From NCBI RefSeq assembly GCF_015207505.1, contig NZ_JADEWT010000014.1, positions 1 to 64,000 on the forward strand: 64,000 bases of DNA. The letters are read 5' to 3'. Positions within the stretch are counted from its first letter, which is position 1, and each line of letters begins with the position of its first letter. The translations under genes were made by a program, and so were the position numbers. This document shows, piece after piece, positions 4,217-25,990 of the stretch. Origin of the DNA: Tychonema sp. LEGE 06208 (GTDB taxonomy: Bacteria > Cyanobacteriota > Cyanobacteriia > Cyanobacteriales > Microcoleaceae). The notes under the pieces are model-generated. The model was not told the origin of the DNA, did not search any database, and was given only the letters and a program-made list of their open reading frames with translations.

Positions 4217-7200
4217 ATGATCACTAAAGATTACGCAGAATTCGCCTTCACCTTGCCCGACCTGATCGAAATCCAGCGGGCAAGTTTTCGCTGGTTCCTA
4301 GAAGCCGGACTGATCGAAGAACTCGATAGCTTTTCCCCGATCTCAGACTACACCGGCAAACTAGAACTCCACTTCATGGGCAAAGACTTCAAACTCAAGC
4401 GCCCGAAATACGACGTGGACGAAGCCAAGCGCCGGGACAGCACCTACTCGGTACAAATGTACGTACCAACCCGCCTGATCAACAAAGAAACAGGCGAAAT
4501 TAAAGAACAAGAAGTCTTCATCGGCGACTTGCCATTGATGACAGAACGGGGAACCTTCATCATCAACGGTGCGGAACGAGTAATCGTCAACCAAATCGTC
4601 CGTTCCCCCGGCGTATACTACAAATCGGAAACCGACAAAAACGGCCGCCGCACCTACAACGCCAGTCTCATCCCCAACCGCGGCGCGTGGCTGAAATTCG
4701 AGACCGACAAAAACGACTTAGTTTGGGTCAGAATCGACAAAACCCGCAAACTATCGGCCCAAGTCCTCCTCAAAGCCCTAGGACTCACAGACGGGGAAAT
4801 CTACGACAGTTTGCGCCACCCCGAATACTTCCAAAAAACCATCGAAAAAGAAGGACAGTTCGGCGAAGAAGAAGCTCTAATGGAGCTCTACCGCAAACTG
4901 CGACCGGGCGAACCCCCCACCGTAGCGGGAGGAGAACAGCTCCTCAATTCCCGCTTTTTCGACCCCAAACGCTACGATTTAGGCAAAGTCGGCCGCTACA
5001 AACTCAACAAAAAACTGCGGTTGACAGTCCCCGACACCGTGCGGGTGCTGACATCCCAAGATATCTTGACGGCGATCGACTATTTGATCAACCTCGAATT
5101 CGACATCGGCTCGACGGATGACATCGACCACTTAGGAAACCGTCGCGTCCGCAGCGTCGGCGAACTGCTGCAAAACCAAGTCAGAGTCGGACTCAACCGC
5201 CTAGAACGGATCATCCGCGAACGCATGACAGTCTCCGACGCAGACTCCCTCACCCCCGCCTCCCTAGTCAACCCCAAACCCCTGGTAGCAGCAATCAAGG
5301 AATTTTTCGGTTCCTCGCAGCTATCCCAGTTCATGGATCAAACCAATCCCCTCGCAGAACTGACCCACAAACGCCGGCTTTCCGCCCTCGGCCCGGGAGG
5401 TCTGACCCGCGAACGCGCAGGTTTCGCAGTGCGGGACATTCACCCGTCCCACTACGGCCGGATTTGCCCGATCGAAACACCAGAAGGCCCCAACGCCGGA
5501 CTGATCGGTTCCCTAGCAACCCACGCCCGCGTCAACCCCTACGGCTTCATCGAAACACCATTCTACCCAGTAGAAAAAGGACAGGTGCTGCGGGACAAAG
5601 CCCCCATCTACATGACAGCCGATGAAGAAGACGACTTGCGCGTCGCCCCCGGAGACATCAGCCTCGACGAAAACAACAACCTCTTGGGCGAAACCGTAGC
5701 CGTCCGCTACCGCCAAGAATTCACCACCACCACCCCGATGCAGGTGGACTACATGGCGATTTCACCCGTACAAATCGTCTCCGTTGCCACCTCCCTGATC
5801 CCGTTCTTGGAACACGACGACGCCAACCGCGCTCTGATGGGGTCGAATATGCAGCGGCAAGCCGTGCCGCTGCTCAAACCCGAACGCCCCCTCGTCGGTA
5901 CTGGTCTCGAAGCTCAGGCCGCCCGAGATTCCGGGATGGTGGTAGTTTCCCGGATTGACGGCGAAGTCATTTACATCGATGCGACCCGGATTATTGTCAA
6001 GCCCCTGGCTGCAGATGCCGAGTCTAATTCCAGCGAAGAACATTTCCTGATTCGCGAGTACGACGAACTCAAAGTCAGACAGCCTTCGGTTTGGAAGCAA
6101 AAATACGCCGGCTGCATCGAACACGAACTGCAAAAATACCAGCGATCTAACCAAGATACCTGCTTGAACCAGCGCCCCCTCATCTATGAGGGCGATCGTG
6201 TCGTAGCAGGTCAAGTCCTCGCCGACGGTTCCTCCACCGAAGGCGCAGAACTCGCCCTCGGTCAGAACATCCTCGTAGCCTATATGCCTTGGGAAGGATA
6301 CAACTACGAAGACGCAATGCTCATCAGCGAGCGATTGGTCTACGAAGACGTATACACCAGCATCCACATCGAGAAATACGAAATCGAAGCCCGCCAAACC
6401 AAACTAGGCCCCGAAGAAATCACCCGCGAAATTCCCAACGTCGGCGAAGACGCCCTCCGCCAGCTAGACGAAGGAGGCATCATCCGCAAAGGCGCTTGGG
6501 TAGAATCTGGCGACATCCTAGTCGGCAAAGTCACCCCCAAAGGCGAATCCGACCAACCCCCCGAAGAAAAACTGCTCAGAGCAATCTTCGGTGAAAAAGC
6601 TCGCGACGTGCGCGACAACTCGCTGCGCGTTCCCAACGGAGAAAAAGGCCGCGTCGTAGATGTGCGCGTTTTTACCCGCGAACAAGGCGACGAACTGCCC
6701 CCGGGCGCTAACATGGTCGTCCGCGTCTACGTCGCCCAAAAGCGAAAAATTCAAGTCGGCGATAAAATGGCCGGCCGCCACGGCAACAAAGGCATCGTCT
6801 CCCGGATTCTGCCGAAGGAAGATATGCCCTACTTGCCCGATGGCACTCCGATTGACATCGTGCTCAACCCCTTGGGCGTACCGTCGCGGATGAACGTCGG
6901 TCAAATTTTCGAGTGCTTGCTAGGCTGGGCGGGCGAAAATCTGTCGATGCGGTTCAAGATGGTGCCGTTTGACGAAATGCACGGCGCTGAAAAGTCGCGG
7001 GAAACCGTTCACGGCAAGTTGGAGGAAGCGCGGGAAAAAACTGGCAAGCCTTGGGTGTTTAACGACAAACACCCAGGCAAGACTATAGTTTATGACGGCA
7101 GAACTGGGGAAGCGTTCGATCGCCCAGTCACAGTCGGCATCGCCTATATGCTCAAACTCGTCCACTTGGTAGACGACAAAATCCACGCCCGCAGCACAGG

Positions 7201-7600
7201 GCCTTACTCCTTGGTGACGCAGCAGCCTTTGGGCGGCAAAGCGCAGCAGGGCGGACAGCGGTTCGGGGAAATGGAAGTCTGGGCCTTGGAGGCCTTCGGC
7301 TGCGCTTACACCTTGCAGGAGTTGCTGACAGTCAAGTCGGACGATATGCAGGGCAGAAACGAGGCTTTAAACGCGATCGTCAAGGGTAAATCCATCCCGC
7401 GCCCCGGTACGCCGGAATCGTTCAAAGTGTTGATGCGGGAGTTGCAGTCTTTGTGTTTGGACATTGCCGTGCACAAAGTGAATACGAACGACGACGGCAG
7501 CGAGCACGTTGAGGTGGATTTGATGGCGGATGCTGGCGGGCGGCGATCGCCCTCCAGGCCTACTTACGAATCGCTTTCTCGCGACGAAGACGAAGATTAG
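4217..7600 (+). CDS. rpoB: DNA-directed RNA polymerase subunit beta
   Basis: This 1127-residue subunit forms one half of the polymerase active-site cleft. The order of conserved parts is intact: N-terminal lobe (FRWFLEAGL), [20 protein letters not shown] near 115, the rifampicin pocket with [19 protein letters not shown] and [13 protein letters not shown] at about residues 366-405, [20 protein letters not shown] near 414, [12 protein letters not shown] near 848, and the C-terminal clamp region ([25 protein letters not shown]). Length fits cyanobacterial RpoB, which lacks some enterobacterial insertions. The serine, histidine and aspartate usually altered in rifampicin-resistant mutants are wild-type. 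Downstream, an HNH reading frame separates it from rpoC1. Confidence 0.99.
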
Positions 7601-7615
7601 GGATTTGAGATTTTT

Positions 7616-7667
7616 CGATTTTAAATTTTAGATTTTTTAGTAATATTTAATCTAAAATTTAAAATCG
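7616..7667. terminator. Long perfect hairpin after rpoB
   Basis: A 19-bp perfect inverted repeat (CGATTTTAAATTTTAGATT at 7616-7634 and its complement at 7649-7667) with a 14-base T/A-rich loop begins 15 bases after the rpoB stop. It is AT-rich rather than the GC-stem/U-run type, so it may instead be an mRNA-stabilising or processing structure, or another mini-element. Confidence 0.45.
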
Positions 7668-7685
7668 ACAATCTCGAATAAAAAT

Positions 7686-7716
7686 GCCTCAGCAGTGTTC
7701 GTACCACTACTGAGGC
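7686..7716 (+). promoter_or_regulatory. Hairpin just upstream of the HNH frame
   Basis: GCCTCAG-C-AGTG pairs with CACT-A-CTGAGGC around TTCGTAC. It sits between the rpoB 3' hairpin and the AAGGAG/ATG of the HNH frame, so it could be part of the 5' leader of that gene or of the inserted segment. Confidence 0.35.
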
Positions 7717-7748
7717 GAATCAACGCTCTAACAAGGAGATGCGCTGAC

Positions 7749-8858
7749 ATGATTATTTTAACAGTTATCCCCGGAATTGAAGGAGAATTCGATCGGGAGA
7801 CAGGCTGTATTAACTGGTAAAGTAGTAAGTTTGGCAATGGTTACGGGCGTAAGTGGATGTCGGGCAAAACGGTATTAGTCCACCGATTAGTCCTCGAATC
7901 AAAAATAGCAGGATTCCTAGATTCCAGTTATTTTGCTTGCCACACCTGCGACAATCCAGGCTGCATCAACCCGGAACATCTCGTAGCGGGGTCTGCCGCT
8001 GAGAACACGGGACAGATGATGGGGCGCGATCCTCTTCGAGGGCTGCGCTAACGCAAAACTCCCAGACGCAAAAGTATTCCGGGAATTGATAACTTGTCGA
8101 TCGTACAACTGCGAGAAATTCAGACTAAATATTTATCGGAAAAAGTCAAGAACCACCTAGCAAAAGAGTATGGGGTACAACATGAAACTATTACTAAGAT
8201 CGTTCAGACAAATATTCCCGATAACTTCACCACAGTTTCTCCACATTTTTTAGGAGAAATTCAAGACAACGGCTGCATAATTTTTCAAGGCGGAAAATAT
8301 TGTTCAGGCTATGGCAGATACTGGAAAAATGGGAATTTGAAATCAGTGACTCGTGCTGTTTTAGCAGAGAAATTAGGATATGAAGTTCCCACATATATGG
8401 ATGCTTGTCATACCTGCGATACTCCCAGTTGTATAAATCCAGAACACCTCTGGGCTGGTACTCGTTCCCAAAATGCCTTAGATGCTTCAAAAAAAGGACG
8501 CACCCAAGGAAAAAGTCATCCCCTTTCCAATGCAAAATTAGACTGGGAAAAGGTGCGAGAAATCCGGCAAAAACTAGCAGCAGGAGAGAGAATGAAGGAT
8601 CTAGCTGAAGCATACAGCGTCAATCCGATAACTATACACAATATTAAGTATCACCTGACATGGAAGGAAGAAGGCGAAGAGATTCCGATTCCTCCCATGG
8701 GTGGATATCTCGATCGCAAACTGACTTTTGATCGAGCACAGGATGTGCGAGAACGCATTAAAGCTGGAGAATCTCTTGCTAAGATTTCGCGCGAATTTGG
8801 AGTGTCAAAAAGTGTCATTTATGACATTAAAACTAATGCCACATATCAAGGAGTATGA
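7749..8858 (+). pseudogene. Tandem HNH endonuclease frame with two in-frame TAA stops
   Basis: From an ATG at 7749 (AAGGAG ten bases upstream) to the stop at 8858 there is one continuous frame of 370 codons broken only by TAA at 7818-7820 and TAA at 8049-8051. It encodes two related units. Unit 1: GCINW-stop, FGNGYGRKW, VHRLVLE, CHTCDNPGCINPEHLVAG, then after the second stop a helix-turn-helix tail. Unit 2: GCIIFQGGKYCSGYGRYW, CHTCDTPSCINPEHLWAG, then two helix-turn-helix segments (LAEAYSVNPITIHNIKY; ISREFGVSKSVIYDIKTNA). The CxxC and NPEH motifs are those of HNH homing-type endonucleases. Only unit 2 (TTG at 8094, 254 residues) could be made without readthrough. The second stop lies in a short repeat also found at 25498-25529. 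Confidence 0.75.
8094..8858 (+). CDS. HNH endonuclease with helix-turn-helix repeats (intact second unit)
   Basis: If translated alone from TTG 8094, this 254-residue protein starts with a helix-turn-helix remnant (residues about 20-45, NHLAKEYGVQHETITKI), then an HNH domain (about 55-115) with the zinc or fold cysteines of CHTCDTPSCINPEHL, then two resolvase-like HTH repeats (about 135-170 and 205-250). This architecture matches phage and organelle freestanding homing endonucleases with NUMOD-like DNA-binding repeats. Its context between rpoB and rpoC1, two essential genes, suits a freestanding homing gene. Its base composition is more AT-rich than rpoB. No Shine-Dalgarno stands before the TTG, so expression is doubtful. 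Confidence 0.65.
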   Translation: MSIVQLREIQTKYLSEKVKNHLAKEYGVQHETITKIVQTNIPDNFTTVSPHFLGEIQDNGCIIFQGGKYCSGYGRYWKNGNLKSVTRAVLAEKLGYEVPTYMDACHTCDTPSCINPEHLWAGTRSQNALDASKKGRTQGKSHPLSNAKLDWEKVREIRQKLAAGERMKDLAEAYSVNPITIHNIKYHLTWKEEGEEIPIPPMGGYLDRKLTFDRAQDVRERIKAGESLAKISREFGVSKSVIYDIKTNATYQGV

Positions 8859-8941: not shown

Positions 8942-10816
8942 ATGGCTAAGATAGAACAACGATTTGATTATGTAAAGATTGGGTTAGCTTCACCTGAAAG
9001 AATTCGACAATGGGGAGAGAGAACTTTACCCAACGGTCAGCTAACTGGCGAAGTCATAAAACCAGAAACCATAAATTACAGAACATTAAAGCCCGAAATG
9101 GACGGGTTGTTTTGTGAGCGAATTTTTGGGCCTGCAAAAGATTGGGAATGTCATTGTGGCAAGTACAAGAGAGTTCGTCATAGAGGCATTGTTTGCGAGA
9201 GATGCGGTGTTGAAGTAACCGAATCTCGCGTCCGTCGCCACCGCATGGGATTTATCAAATTAGCAGCTCCAGTCGCTCACGTTTGGTATCTCAAAGGTAT
9301 CCCCAGTTACATGGCGATTCTGTTAGATATGCCGCTGCGAGATGTCGAACAAATTGTCTATTTCAATGCCTATGTTGTGTTGAATGCTGGCAATGCTGAA
9401 AAGCTGCAATACAAGCAATTGCTCACAGAAGATGCTTGGCTGGAAATAGAAGATGAACTTTACAGCGAAGATTCCACGCTGACCGGCGTAGAAGTAGGAA
9501 TCGGTGCTGAAGCTTTGCAAGTTTTGCTGCAAAATATTCCGCTAGAAAGCGAAGCGGAAAAGCTGCGCGAAGATATTGCTAATGCTAAAGGTCAAAAACG
9601 AGCGAAGTTAATCAAACGTTTGCGGGTAATTGACAACTTTATCGCTACGGGTTCTCATCCCGATTGGATGGTGCTGTCGGTGATTCCGGTGATTCCCCCA
9701 GACTTGCGGCCGATGGTACAGCTAGACGGCGGGCGTTTTGCAACGAGCGACCTCAACGATCTTTATCGGAGAGTAATTAACCGTAACAACCGCTTGGCGA
9801 GACTGCAAGAAATCCTAGCGCCGGAAATTATCATCCGCAACGAAAAACGGATGCTGCAAGAAGCTGTGGATGCGCTGATTGACAACGGCCGCCGCGGCCG
9901 GACTGTCGTGGGCGCAAACAACCGCCCGCTGAAATCTCTGTCGGACATTATTGAAGGGAAACAAGGCCGCTTCCGGCAAAACTTGCTCGGGAAACGGGTT
10001 GACTATTCTGGACGTTCGGTGATTGTGGTGGGGCCGAAACTGAAAATTCATCAGTGCGGTTTACCGAGGGAAATGGCGATCGAACTTTTCCAGCCCTTCG
10101 TCATCCACCGCCTCATCCGCCAAGGATTGGTCAATAACATCAAAGCTGCCAAAAAATTGATTCAGCGCAGCGACCCAAGCATCTGGGAGGTGCTTCAAGA
10201 AGTGATTGAAGGACACCCAGTCATGCTGAACCGGGCCCCCACCCTGCACCGTTTGGGAATTCAAGCCTTCGAGCCCATTTTGGTAGACGGGAGGGCGATT
10301 CAGCTTCACCCGCTAGTTTGTCCGGCTTTTAACGCTGACTTTGACGGCGACCAAATGGCCGTGCACGTGCCCTTGTCTCTGGAATCTCAGGCGGAAGCCC
10401 GCTTGCTGATGCTGGCTTCTAATAACATTATGTCGCCCGCAACCGGAAGACCGATTGTCACTCCTTCGCAAGATATGGTGCTCGGTTGCTATTACTTGAC
10501 AGCGGAAAATCGCGACGCTCAAAAAGGAGCAGGTCACTATTTCTCTAACCTCACCGATGCGGTTGTAGCCTACGAACAAGGAGTTGTTGACTTGCATTCC
10601 TACGTGTGGGTGAGATTTCAAGGCCGGATAGAAAATATAGAACCAGAAGGAGAACCGCTGAAACTAGAACGATCGACCGACGGTACGGTGACGAAAGAAT
10701 TCAAGTTTCGCCGGATTCGAGAAGACAAAGAAGGCAACTTGCTCAATCAGTTTATTCGCACTACTCCCGGTCGAATTATCTATCACCAAACGATCGAATC
10801 GGTCATTAATAATTAG
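8942..10816 (+). CDS. rpoC1: DNA-directed RNA polymerase subunit gamma (RpoC1)
   Basis: RpoC1 is the N-terminal part of beta' that is encoded separately in cyanobacteria and plastids. The product is 624 residues. It has the zinc ribbon CHCGKYKR...CERC near residues 70-88, the clamp and lid region, and the catalytic [14 protein letters not shown] motif near residue 464, whose three aspartates hold the active-site magnesium. ATG 8942 gives [14 protein letters not shown], the conserved start; a TTG twelve bases upstream is less likely. The first few hundred bases look more AT-rich than the rest of the gene. It follows the HNH frame by only 83 bases. Confidence 0.98.
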
Positions 10817-11070
10817 GAATTGGAAAATTGGGAAATAACAGCGGGTAATAGGCGATCGGTCAGTCTAGGAGCGAGAAACTAGGTTTCTAAGGGTTGGGTT
10901 ATGTGACCAAAAATATTCTCAGAAACCCGGTTTCTGAACTGATGACCGATGAGTGATGCGCCAGGAGCGAGAAACCGGGTTTCTACAGGTTGGGCTTGGT
11001 GAGGAGAAATATTCTCAGAAACCCGGTTTCTAAACTGATGACTGACGAGTAAATTACTAACAGCAAACAA
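10817..11070. repeat. Palindrome-rich tandem repeat between rpoC1 and rpoC2
   Basis: Two copies of a roughly 105-bp unit are visible: GAGCGAGAAAC..GGTTTCTA, a GGTTGGG word, AAATATTCTCAGAAACCCGG and TTTCTgAACTGATGAC. Each unit has two arms of the AGAAACCCGGTTTCT palindrome facing each other across about 45 bases, so the transcript could fold into large hairpins between two essential operon genes. No protein is encoded. Confidence 0.8.
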
Positions 11071-15299: not shown

Positions 15300-16041
<742 letters not shown>

Positions 16042-16150
16042 TATAGCGGTTCTCAAGCTTGGTGAGGTATACGGGCTCTTTCCACTCCTGCCTATGCCCG
16101 GTTTGGCCTATGCCCACTCCTAGCACCTCATGTTACCGAGAAAGGCTATA
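16042..16150. mobile_element. Mini-element with TATAGCGGTTCTC / GAGAAAGGCTATA ends
   Basis: The left end is TATAGCGGTTCTCAAGCTTG and the right end GTTACCGAGAAAGGCTATA, an imperfect terminal inverted repeat. The inside has GTGAGGTATA and CACCTCATG arms and CCTATGCCC words like the element at 1549-1662. It abuts the 50-bp tandem repeat on its left and ends nine bases before the receiver gene's 3' end. Confidence 0.55.
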
Positions 16151-24276: not shown

Positions 24277-25990
24277 GCCGCCTTCCTCATGCTCCTGAAT
24301 TAAAGAATAAATAACAGTGGAATAGTGTCTGTTTGTAGTTTAGACAAGTTAGCCAGTATTGGCATTTCCGCAGTAAGAAATAGTGGGCTTTTCAGTTTGC
24401 TAAATGAAGCAGTGACCGAAACTGCGTTTGTTTGACGAGTCAAATTTCGACTTCTGGTTGAAAGAAGCAGCGAGTACATTCAATCTATCGCATATTTTTA
24501 ACGTTGCAACCTATATTGAGGGTGCAGCTTTTTCTTTCACAGCGAGTTATCGCCTCATCTGCGATACCTTACCCAGAAAAACGAATGCCAGAGATGCGAT
24601 CGCACGCAGGTCAAAATACTGGCTTTTTTTTGCCCGGTACTTCGATCTTTTACCCGTACCAGTTTTCTGGTACTGAACCCTCTAACTTTTGTGTTTGAGG
24701 TGTCGAACTTTTGAGAAAGCCGACAGGGTGCGAGTGACGATGTTGTCAGATCTCACAGTTGCACGGCTAATTTTTGCCATCTCGGATGTAGGTTTGCTGC
24801 TTCAAACGCAACAGCAGAGAGTCGTAGCACCAAATGGTGAGAATCGGATCTGGCAAAGACCCTTCCGATTGTAGCCGTTCTCACAAAAAATGGAAGTTAT
24901 TTTCAATTTTTGTCAAGAACTCGGAAAAATTTGTCAGCTTAGCTTGACAATAGTGACTCATGGTCGATTCAGCTCAATCCTGAGAAAGCCCCCTAAAAAC
25001 CTGGGTACGATCGAACTGCGCTGTTTTTTGTGCTGATGTGGGTGAACGGCTGCGGCGCAGTCTGCCAGACAGTTAGCAGACAATTTTTGATTTGCTGGAA
25101 GTGAAACCAATAAAATCTTTGTAGATGCACCCATCATTACCCTGTTTCCCTGAATTGAATCATACGCAATCTGCGATCTAATAAAGCTTGCGAACTTGAG
25201 TTGTAAGTCGGCCGCTCTGAAGTAGAAACCGACGATTTCCCCTAATGAAGCGTTGCGGGTTTAATAGTGCAACAGGGGCTTTCTTTGTTAAGTTAGCTCA
25301 AATCCCAGAAATTGGGTTTAATTTCGACATTAAATCACATTAAGTTATTAACGTCACATTTTCATTTAAGCAGTGGGACACGAGTTTATGGCAGAGCGTG
25401 GCAAAAACCACCCGGATAAATTCTACTGAGAGTTAACCCGTCGCGCAACTCCCGGCAGCAAATGTCTCTAAAATTTGCTGGCTTTCGGCTCGCACTTGCG
25501 CGATCCTCTTCTGCAAGCTTCGCTAACGCCCATTTTCACAAGCAAGACAATTCGCTATTTCCCGAAAGCACAACTTCACATTTACTTTAAATATATCCTA
25601 ACAGTGTGAAGCTTTGACAAAGCAAATTCATCAATTTCAAGTAAAATTACTGGTGTTGTGTGGAAGATTTCCAGCAGACAGAACAAAAGCCCAGCAGACT
25701 TTGCTACAGCGGAGGGCGGAGGATAGCTTTTAAAAAAAAGAAACTTACCGAGTGTAGTGATGTGCTTGCTGTTTGGCGATCGTCCAAAAGCTGCCGAGTT
25801 CGTTCAAAGCTGTTAAACAATAGGACTCTGGTGCTATGTGAAGATTTTTGTTACATTTATTTACAGCCCTTCCTCCGAAAGCAGGTATCCGGCCACTCTG
25901 GTTTAAATCATGTGGCTCGATAGCTAGGGTATTTCGCTATCAGGATAAATTTCTGCTCCGCATCTGTCTTGACAACGCCGGCAAAGTTGA
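24277..25990. other. Long 1.7-kb region without a recognised gene
   Basis: It lies between the sigA start and the DUF4276 gene's 3' end, both on the minus strand. The near part should hold the sigA promoter(s). Small frames at 24428-24698, 24689-24874 and 25660-25923 have no motif, ribosome binding site or composition that supports them. A short repeat with GCGCGATCCTCTTC and CTTCGCTAACGCC at 25498-25529 is shared with 8024-8054. I found no tRNA- or 6S-like fold by eye, but a structured RNA cannot be excluded. Confidence 0.5.
25498..25529. repeat. GCGCGATCCTCTTC-CTTCGCTAACGC repeat
   Basis: This about 32-bp word occurs here and, with changes in the middle, at 8024-8054, where its TAA makes the second stop of the HNH frame. 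It looks like a small dispersed repeat with HIP1-like bases. Confidence 0.55.

Follow-up and report, generated by a model that had tools for sequence, protein, structure and literature searches.

Why should a frame that encodes two HNH nuclease units, broken by two stop codons, lie between rpoB and rpoC1 in Tychonema sp. LEGE 06208? The window analysed here is a stretch of 64,000 nucleotides in which both rpo genes are complete on either side of the frame (Table 1). A frame scan agrees with the preliminary description that the 370 codons (7749-8858, plus strand) are interrupted only by TAA at 7818 and TAA at 8049. The gene had also been called unusual for this junction, and the comparison bears this out: the rpoB-rpoC1 spacer has a median of 157 nt in the 93 genomes of the order outside the genus that have a measured junction.

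Table 1. Features at the rpoB-rpoC1 junction, in window positions
Feature	Position	Strand	Basis or remark
rpoB, upstream neighbour	4217-7600	+	1127-aa ORF
AT-rich inverted repeat, 23 bp, directly after rpoB	7612-7671	unspecified	
Leader hairpin GCCTCAGCAGTG-TTCGTAC-CACTACTGAGGC	7686-7716	+	stem retained in 20 genus copies
AAGGAG, likely ribosome-binding site ahead of ATG 7749	7733-7738	+	read from the sequence; most leaders keep it
Two-unit HNH/His-Me nuclease pseudogene, 370 codons including stops	7749-8858	+	
Unit 1, HNH_3/zf-His_Me domain	7794-8018	+	motif 7938-7982; predicted catalytic H65, N86
Stop 1, TAA replacing Gln/Arg codon (residue 24) of relatives	7818-7820	+	alignment with relatives
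21-nt SDR-like insertion CCTCTTCGAGGGCTGCGCTAA into CGAT/CG (HIP1 core)	8031-8051	+	relatives' uninterrupted alleles
HTH segment between units	8100-8207	+	helices of orthologue model
Unit 2 HNH motif (8406-8450)	8406-8480	+	predicted catalytic H221, N242
Second HTH segment	8544-8651	+	profile matches; helices of orthologue model
Third HTH segment, CENP-B_N/HTH_7-like	8727-8831	+	profile matches; helices of orthologue model
rpoC1, downstream neighbour	8942-10816	+	first ~80 codons move together with the HNH allele

The genus sample consists of 30 genomes (named records are Microcoleus, Tychonema BBK16, Lyngbya CCAP 1446/10 and others), and rpoC1 was found in 27 of them. A full-length HNH frame lies directly upstream of rpoC1 in 19 of the 27, and in 17 it is an uninterrupted two-unit orthologue of about 362 amino acids with three HTH segments, 75-90% identical to the window copy. 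Microcoleus vaginatus HSN003 (L045) carries an intact orthologue. Intact orthologues at the same location with this degree of identity place the frame far beyond chance. A lack of intact two-unit homologues, which the preliminary description held to speak against a mobile gene, is thus not what is seen. The interrupted full-length frames are those of G035, with one TAA, and of the window's own genome (G000), with two. Six genomes have a partial or remnant gene and two have no recognisable gene, so the occupied and empty spacer alleles that had been proposed as a mark of homing both exist among the relatives. The gene is cut at the contig end in G033, G030 has the insert stop of the window and an internal deletion as well, unit 2 is missing in G026 and G027, and a decayed N-terminal stretch is all that remains in G028 and G029. 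The spacer in G016 is 380 nt long with leader-like fragments, and that in G012 is 116 nt long with no trace of the HNH gene. Because intact, broken, remnant and empty states all occur in the genus, the window copy is a decayed version of a gene spread across the genus, that is, a pseudogene allele of a widespread Microcoleus two-unit HNH gene.

The gene in the window has been killed by a point mutation and by a 21-nt mobile repeat. At the first stop the relatives have Q (R in one) and TAA is found in G000 only. At the second lesion most relatives read GCGCGATCGCAAAACTCC and the window reads GCGCGATC-CTCTTCGAGGGCTGCGCTAAC-GCAAAACTCC, with an insert edge that is ambiguous by one base. The insert adds PLRGLR and the stop TAA at 8049, and it preserves the frame because it is 21 nt long. 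The suggestion that a repeat insertion had made the second stop was correct, but the 31-bp word said to recur at 25498 reduces to 14 exact bases shared, around 8025-8038. A 22-nt sibling repeat is located at 25505-25526, inside a CGAT...CG context (25501-25528).

The insertion site, CGATCG, is the core of HIP1 (GCGATCGC). The core of the repeat itself, GAGGGCTKCGCTAA, has 30 copies in G000, with CGAT at the expected distance before 29 of the 30 and CG after 27. Throughout the 30 genus genomes there are 680 cores, and 610 of them (90%) are found in the arrangement CGAT-N7-core-CG, compared with 17 for the reversed control. A sibling 21-nt insert occurs in the same HNH gene of G038 (L020) at a different CGATCG, where it encodes the seven sense codons LSEGCAN without a stop and leaves the reading frame intact. 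No mobilising enzyme is known for this 21-nt mobile repeat, which offers clean empty-site pairs and base-exact placement in the HIP1 palindrome. According to PMC4390886, citing Elhai et al. 2008, SDR5 enters HIP1 after its third nucleotide, between nucleotides 3 and 4. On the opposite strand the insertion point of the 21-nt element is GCG/ATCGC, the one given there for SDR5. The element shares with SDR5 and other very small cyanobacterial repeats, as described there, its size (21 nt, in a range of about 20-27 nt), its dispersed occurrence and its precise insertion into HIP1; it differs in host genus. Judged by size and insertion site, the insert is one of a family of very small mobile repeats that resemble SDR5.

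That the stops were made by sequencing or assembly errors is very improbable. A single assembly of the window genome was read, which would allow for such an error, but lesion 2 is present base for base in G035 and G030 and the insert is a member of a repeat family with many copies in G000. The presence of the same insert at the same position in these three genomes is nevertheless difficult to trace to a single event, one of the two others being in a distant clade. On the HNH gene, the AU test rejects one ancestral insertion with G000, G035 and G030 as a clade (p 4e-79), and for G000 and G035 alone it gives p 0.22 on HNH and a rejection on rpoC1. The flanks of the insert in G030 resemble those of G019, which is without the insert. 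Given this rejection and these flanks, the shared insert requires either that the repeat inserted in parallel or that conversion acted over a very short tract.

The median dN/dS is 0.25 for pairs of intact HNH genes and 0.037 for rpoC1, which indicates that the intact orthologues are under purifying selection. Values of 0.26-0.27 for G000 and G035 against intact copies suggest that the decay is recent or has been recombined in. The preliminary description left a choice between recent decay and readthrough, and only the former has stood: readthrough is unneeded and unsupported because 17 relatives lack both stops and G000 alone has the first one. Readthrough, or re-initiation of unit 2 at TTG 8094 as a separate 254-aa protein, is therefore quite unlikely, although the downstream frame (8094-8858) is fully open with no frameshift and the dN/dS between G000 and G035 past the insert is 0.31, not near 1. 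A low dN/dS is compatible with recent decay too, and the two lesions are of different kinds. The private changes of G000 also tell against a working product, with 17.5 nonsynonymous versus 9.5 synonymous changes plus a stop, the nonsynonymous count being among the highest in the clade.

The protein encoded by the gene has two homologous halves. The two CHTCD-x-P-x-CINPEHL motifs reported earlier are in register and followed by HTH segments, as both the motifs and the Pfam matches confirm. On the read-through frame, zf-His_Me_endon (PF05551, 1.2e-10) and HNH_3 (PF13392, 4.9e-10) each match two stretches, with HTH matches at the C-terminal side, and in the intact orthologue PF05551/PF13392 are above the cut-off. 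Both units have the pattern C-H-x-C-D-x3-C-x-N-P-x-H-L and an Asn nine residues past the last His, and in an alignment of six homologues the catalytic H and N do not vary in either unit. In orthologue numbering the I-PpoI pattern is H65/C67/C72/H77/N86 in unit 1 and H214/C216/C221/H226/N235 in unit 2. Unit 2 lacks the HR-motif His of unit 1 (VTRAVL) in all Microcoleus orthologues; this His of unit 2 is present in the homologues of G001 and G013. The AlphaFold2 model of an intact orthologue is poor (pLDDT 51, pTM 0.24) and was not taken to a fold search, so the proposed nuclease fold rests on motifs and profiles. A single-sequence search of the PDB gave nothing useful.

Upstream of the gene, the 7-nt loop of the leader hairpin (7698-7704) is found in two orientations among relatives, TTCGTAC, as in the window, and GTACGAA. 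Each is the reverse complement of the other, which looks like an inversion of the loop with the arms of the hairpin left in place. The hairpin was also considered as a covarying RNA: the stem is conserved but only a single pair covaries, and any role, as RNA or as DNA, is putative. No intron or other RNA family of Rfam matched window 1-30000 at the gathering threshold.

Other repeats and mobile elements are seen in the surroundings of the operon. The rpoC1-rpoC2 spacer (10879-11070) has a duplicated segment, with HQFRNRVSENI... appearing twice in one minus-strand frame, and downstream of rpoC2 there is a low-complexity tract (15761-16123) of SLHPLHPVHCSLPNFLLP-type tandem units. At 67-1304 on the minus strand, a transposase of the serine-recombinase type (657-1304), together with a short ORF that is TnpB-like (67-660), can be read as an IS607-like pair.

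The HNH tree conflicts with the rpoC1 tree. HNH dS is 0.36 between G025 and G024 and 0.40 between G014 and G036, versus 0.084 and 0.105 for internal rpoC1, while for G031 and G024 the order is reversed (0.08 versus 0.28). Synonymous distances in rpoC1 codons 1-80 follow HNH (correlation 0.78) more closely than they follow the remaining rpoC1 (0.54), and HNH correlates with internal rpoC1 at 0.53; these dS correlations are descriptive because the pairs are not independent. Sliding identities put the ends of the exchange tracts shortly inside rpoC1, at about 9.1-9.3 kb. HNH alleles have thus been exchanged between lineages together with the 5' end of rpoC1. Such tracts would be expected if a cut close to the start of rpoC1 were repaired with co-conversion, and ordinary homologous recombination, which can produce short-tract allele exchange, would give them as well.

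HNH genes are also found at rpo junctions elsewhere in the order. Six of the 93 genomes outside the genus have one in the rpoB-rpoC1 spacer. Three of these genes are decayed copies (f20/g30), two are two-unit genes (f20/g72) and one belongs to f8/g18. The two-unit gene of G160 (f20/g72) is C-terminally frameshifted and that of G176 is intact and different. G001 has a two-unit HNH gene between rpoC1 and rpoC2; the groups with HNH genes in rpo junctions are f20, f8 and genus g2. In G160 (L158, 2037-8088) the rpoC1-rpoC2 junction holds in addition a 265-aa HNH gene of the classical type in antisense orientation, which is present in G176 too, and a 210-aa one-unit HNH gene with two HTH segments follows rpoC2. 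In the literature searched, HNH genes are not reported from the rpoB-rpoC1 spacer or the rpo operon of any bacterium, which does not prove their absence from it.

A second two-unit HNH lineage is seen in L031 (1516-2373), flanked by genes for a chemotaxis receptor and a CheA-like protein, and frames similar to it occur in many Microcoleus genomes.

The intact gene is most likely a free-standing homing endonuclease with a predicted cleavage activity, because there is no intron, because occupied, empty and decaying alleles coexist, because alleles are exchanged with the rpoC1 5' end and because the same operon carries other HNH genes in other genomes. We infer the homing activity and its target from these comparisons. 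The intact enzyme would recognise, through its HTH segments, a conserved sequence in the rpo genes next to it and would cut or nick alleles without the HNH gene. Recombination repair might then copy the gene into such an allele and convert flanking rpoC1 sequence along with it, that is, intronless homing. After fixation, selection would be relaxed and the gene might erode by stops, SDR insertions and unit deletions to remnants and finally an empty spacer. A dead allele of a two-unit His-Me/HNH homing-type gene, with intronless homing and post-fixation erosion, is on the whole a probable reading of the locus. A more specific version is possible but tentative: a single-chain HNH enzyme with two active sites that invades the essential rpoBC operon of filamentous cyanobacteria and targets the rpoC1 start, the operon being a chromosomal nest of homing genes, with silencing of the gene by one 21-bp HIP1-targeting element, independently in separate lineages, at the same site.

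Broad retention and the dN/dS of the intact genes also fit a regulator that serves the host. The gene might accordingly encode a domesticated protein, perhaps a nuclease that is dead, which binds DNA and regulates the rpoBC operon, is beneficial to the host and was lost in a few lineages. The conserved leader hairpin and ribosome-binding site would agree with this, as would purifying selection at one locus kept across most of the genus and the loss of the HR histidine from unit 2. Such a regulator is still unlikely, since the predicted catalytic His and Asn are kept in both units, losses and remnants are frequent, alleles are exchanged contrary to the rpoC1 history, and unrelated HNH genes are found at neighbouring junctions in other families.

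Free-standing homing genes have been studied mainly in phages. Here one genus holds, at one junction of an essential chromosomal operon, alleles that are intact, exchanged, broken by a nonsense codon or a repeat insertion, partly deleted or reduced to remnants, as well as empty spacers; with every expected stage of the life cycle in a single genus, homing in the chromosome of a bacterium can be put to the test.

The closest cyanobacterial counterparts are the two-unit genes L031, L024 (rpoC1-rpoC2) and L159 (rpoB-rpoC1), which share the two-unit architecture and the position at operon junctions. L031 and L024 differ from the window gene in being about 40% identical to it, in lying at other junctions and in having one HTH after unit 2. 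Among viral contigs there are three distant matches only.

In T4, free-standing HNH genes occupy the intergenic regions of conserved genes and home although they lie in no intron (PMC2988022); other phages have their homing genes clustered close to essential genes (PMC10448857). The window gene resembles such phage genes (T4 mobA-E; 7.7C of Citrobacter phage CR44b) in its intergenic, intron-free location next to conserved essential genes, its patchy presence and its HNH core with DNA-binding segments. The phage relatives have 33-38% identity at best among the matches listed, and some are annotated as homing endonucleases. Those listed (T7-like HNH+HTH, for example CR44b 7.7C) have one unit, whereas the window gene has two HNH units per chain, lies inside the rpo operon of a bacterial chromosome and has a putative homing activity.

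I-PpoI is a eukaryotic enzyme and a homodimer of single units, with a catalytic His, a Zn-binding Cys/Cys/His and a Mg-binding Asn. Its His-Cys box (PF05551) has the spacing H98-x-C100-x4-C105-x4-H110-x8-N119, which is found exactly in both units of the window gene. The family profile aligns to I-PpoI at just those residues, although weakly (E 0.28, 28 residues), and similarity beyond these approximately 28 residues is not significant. I-PpoI is also intron-encoded, unlike the gene at this junction. A two-unit chain with the I-PpoI catalytic residues in both halves, located in a bacterial rpo operon, appears to be a new arrangement of a known type of gene.
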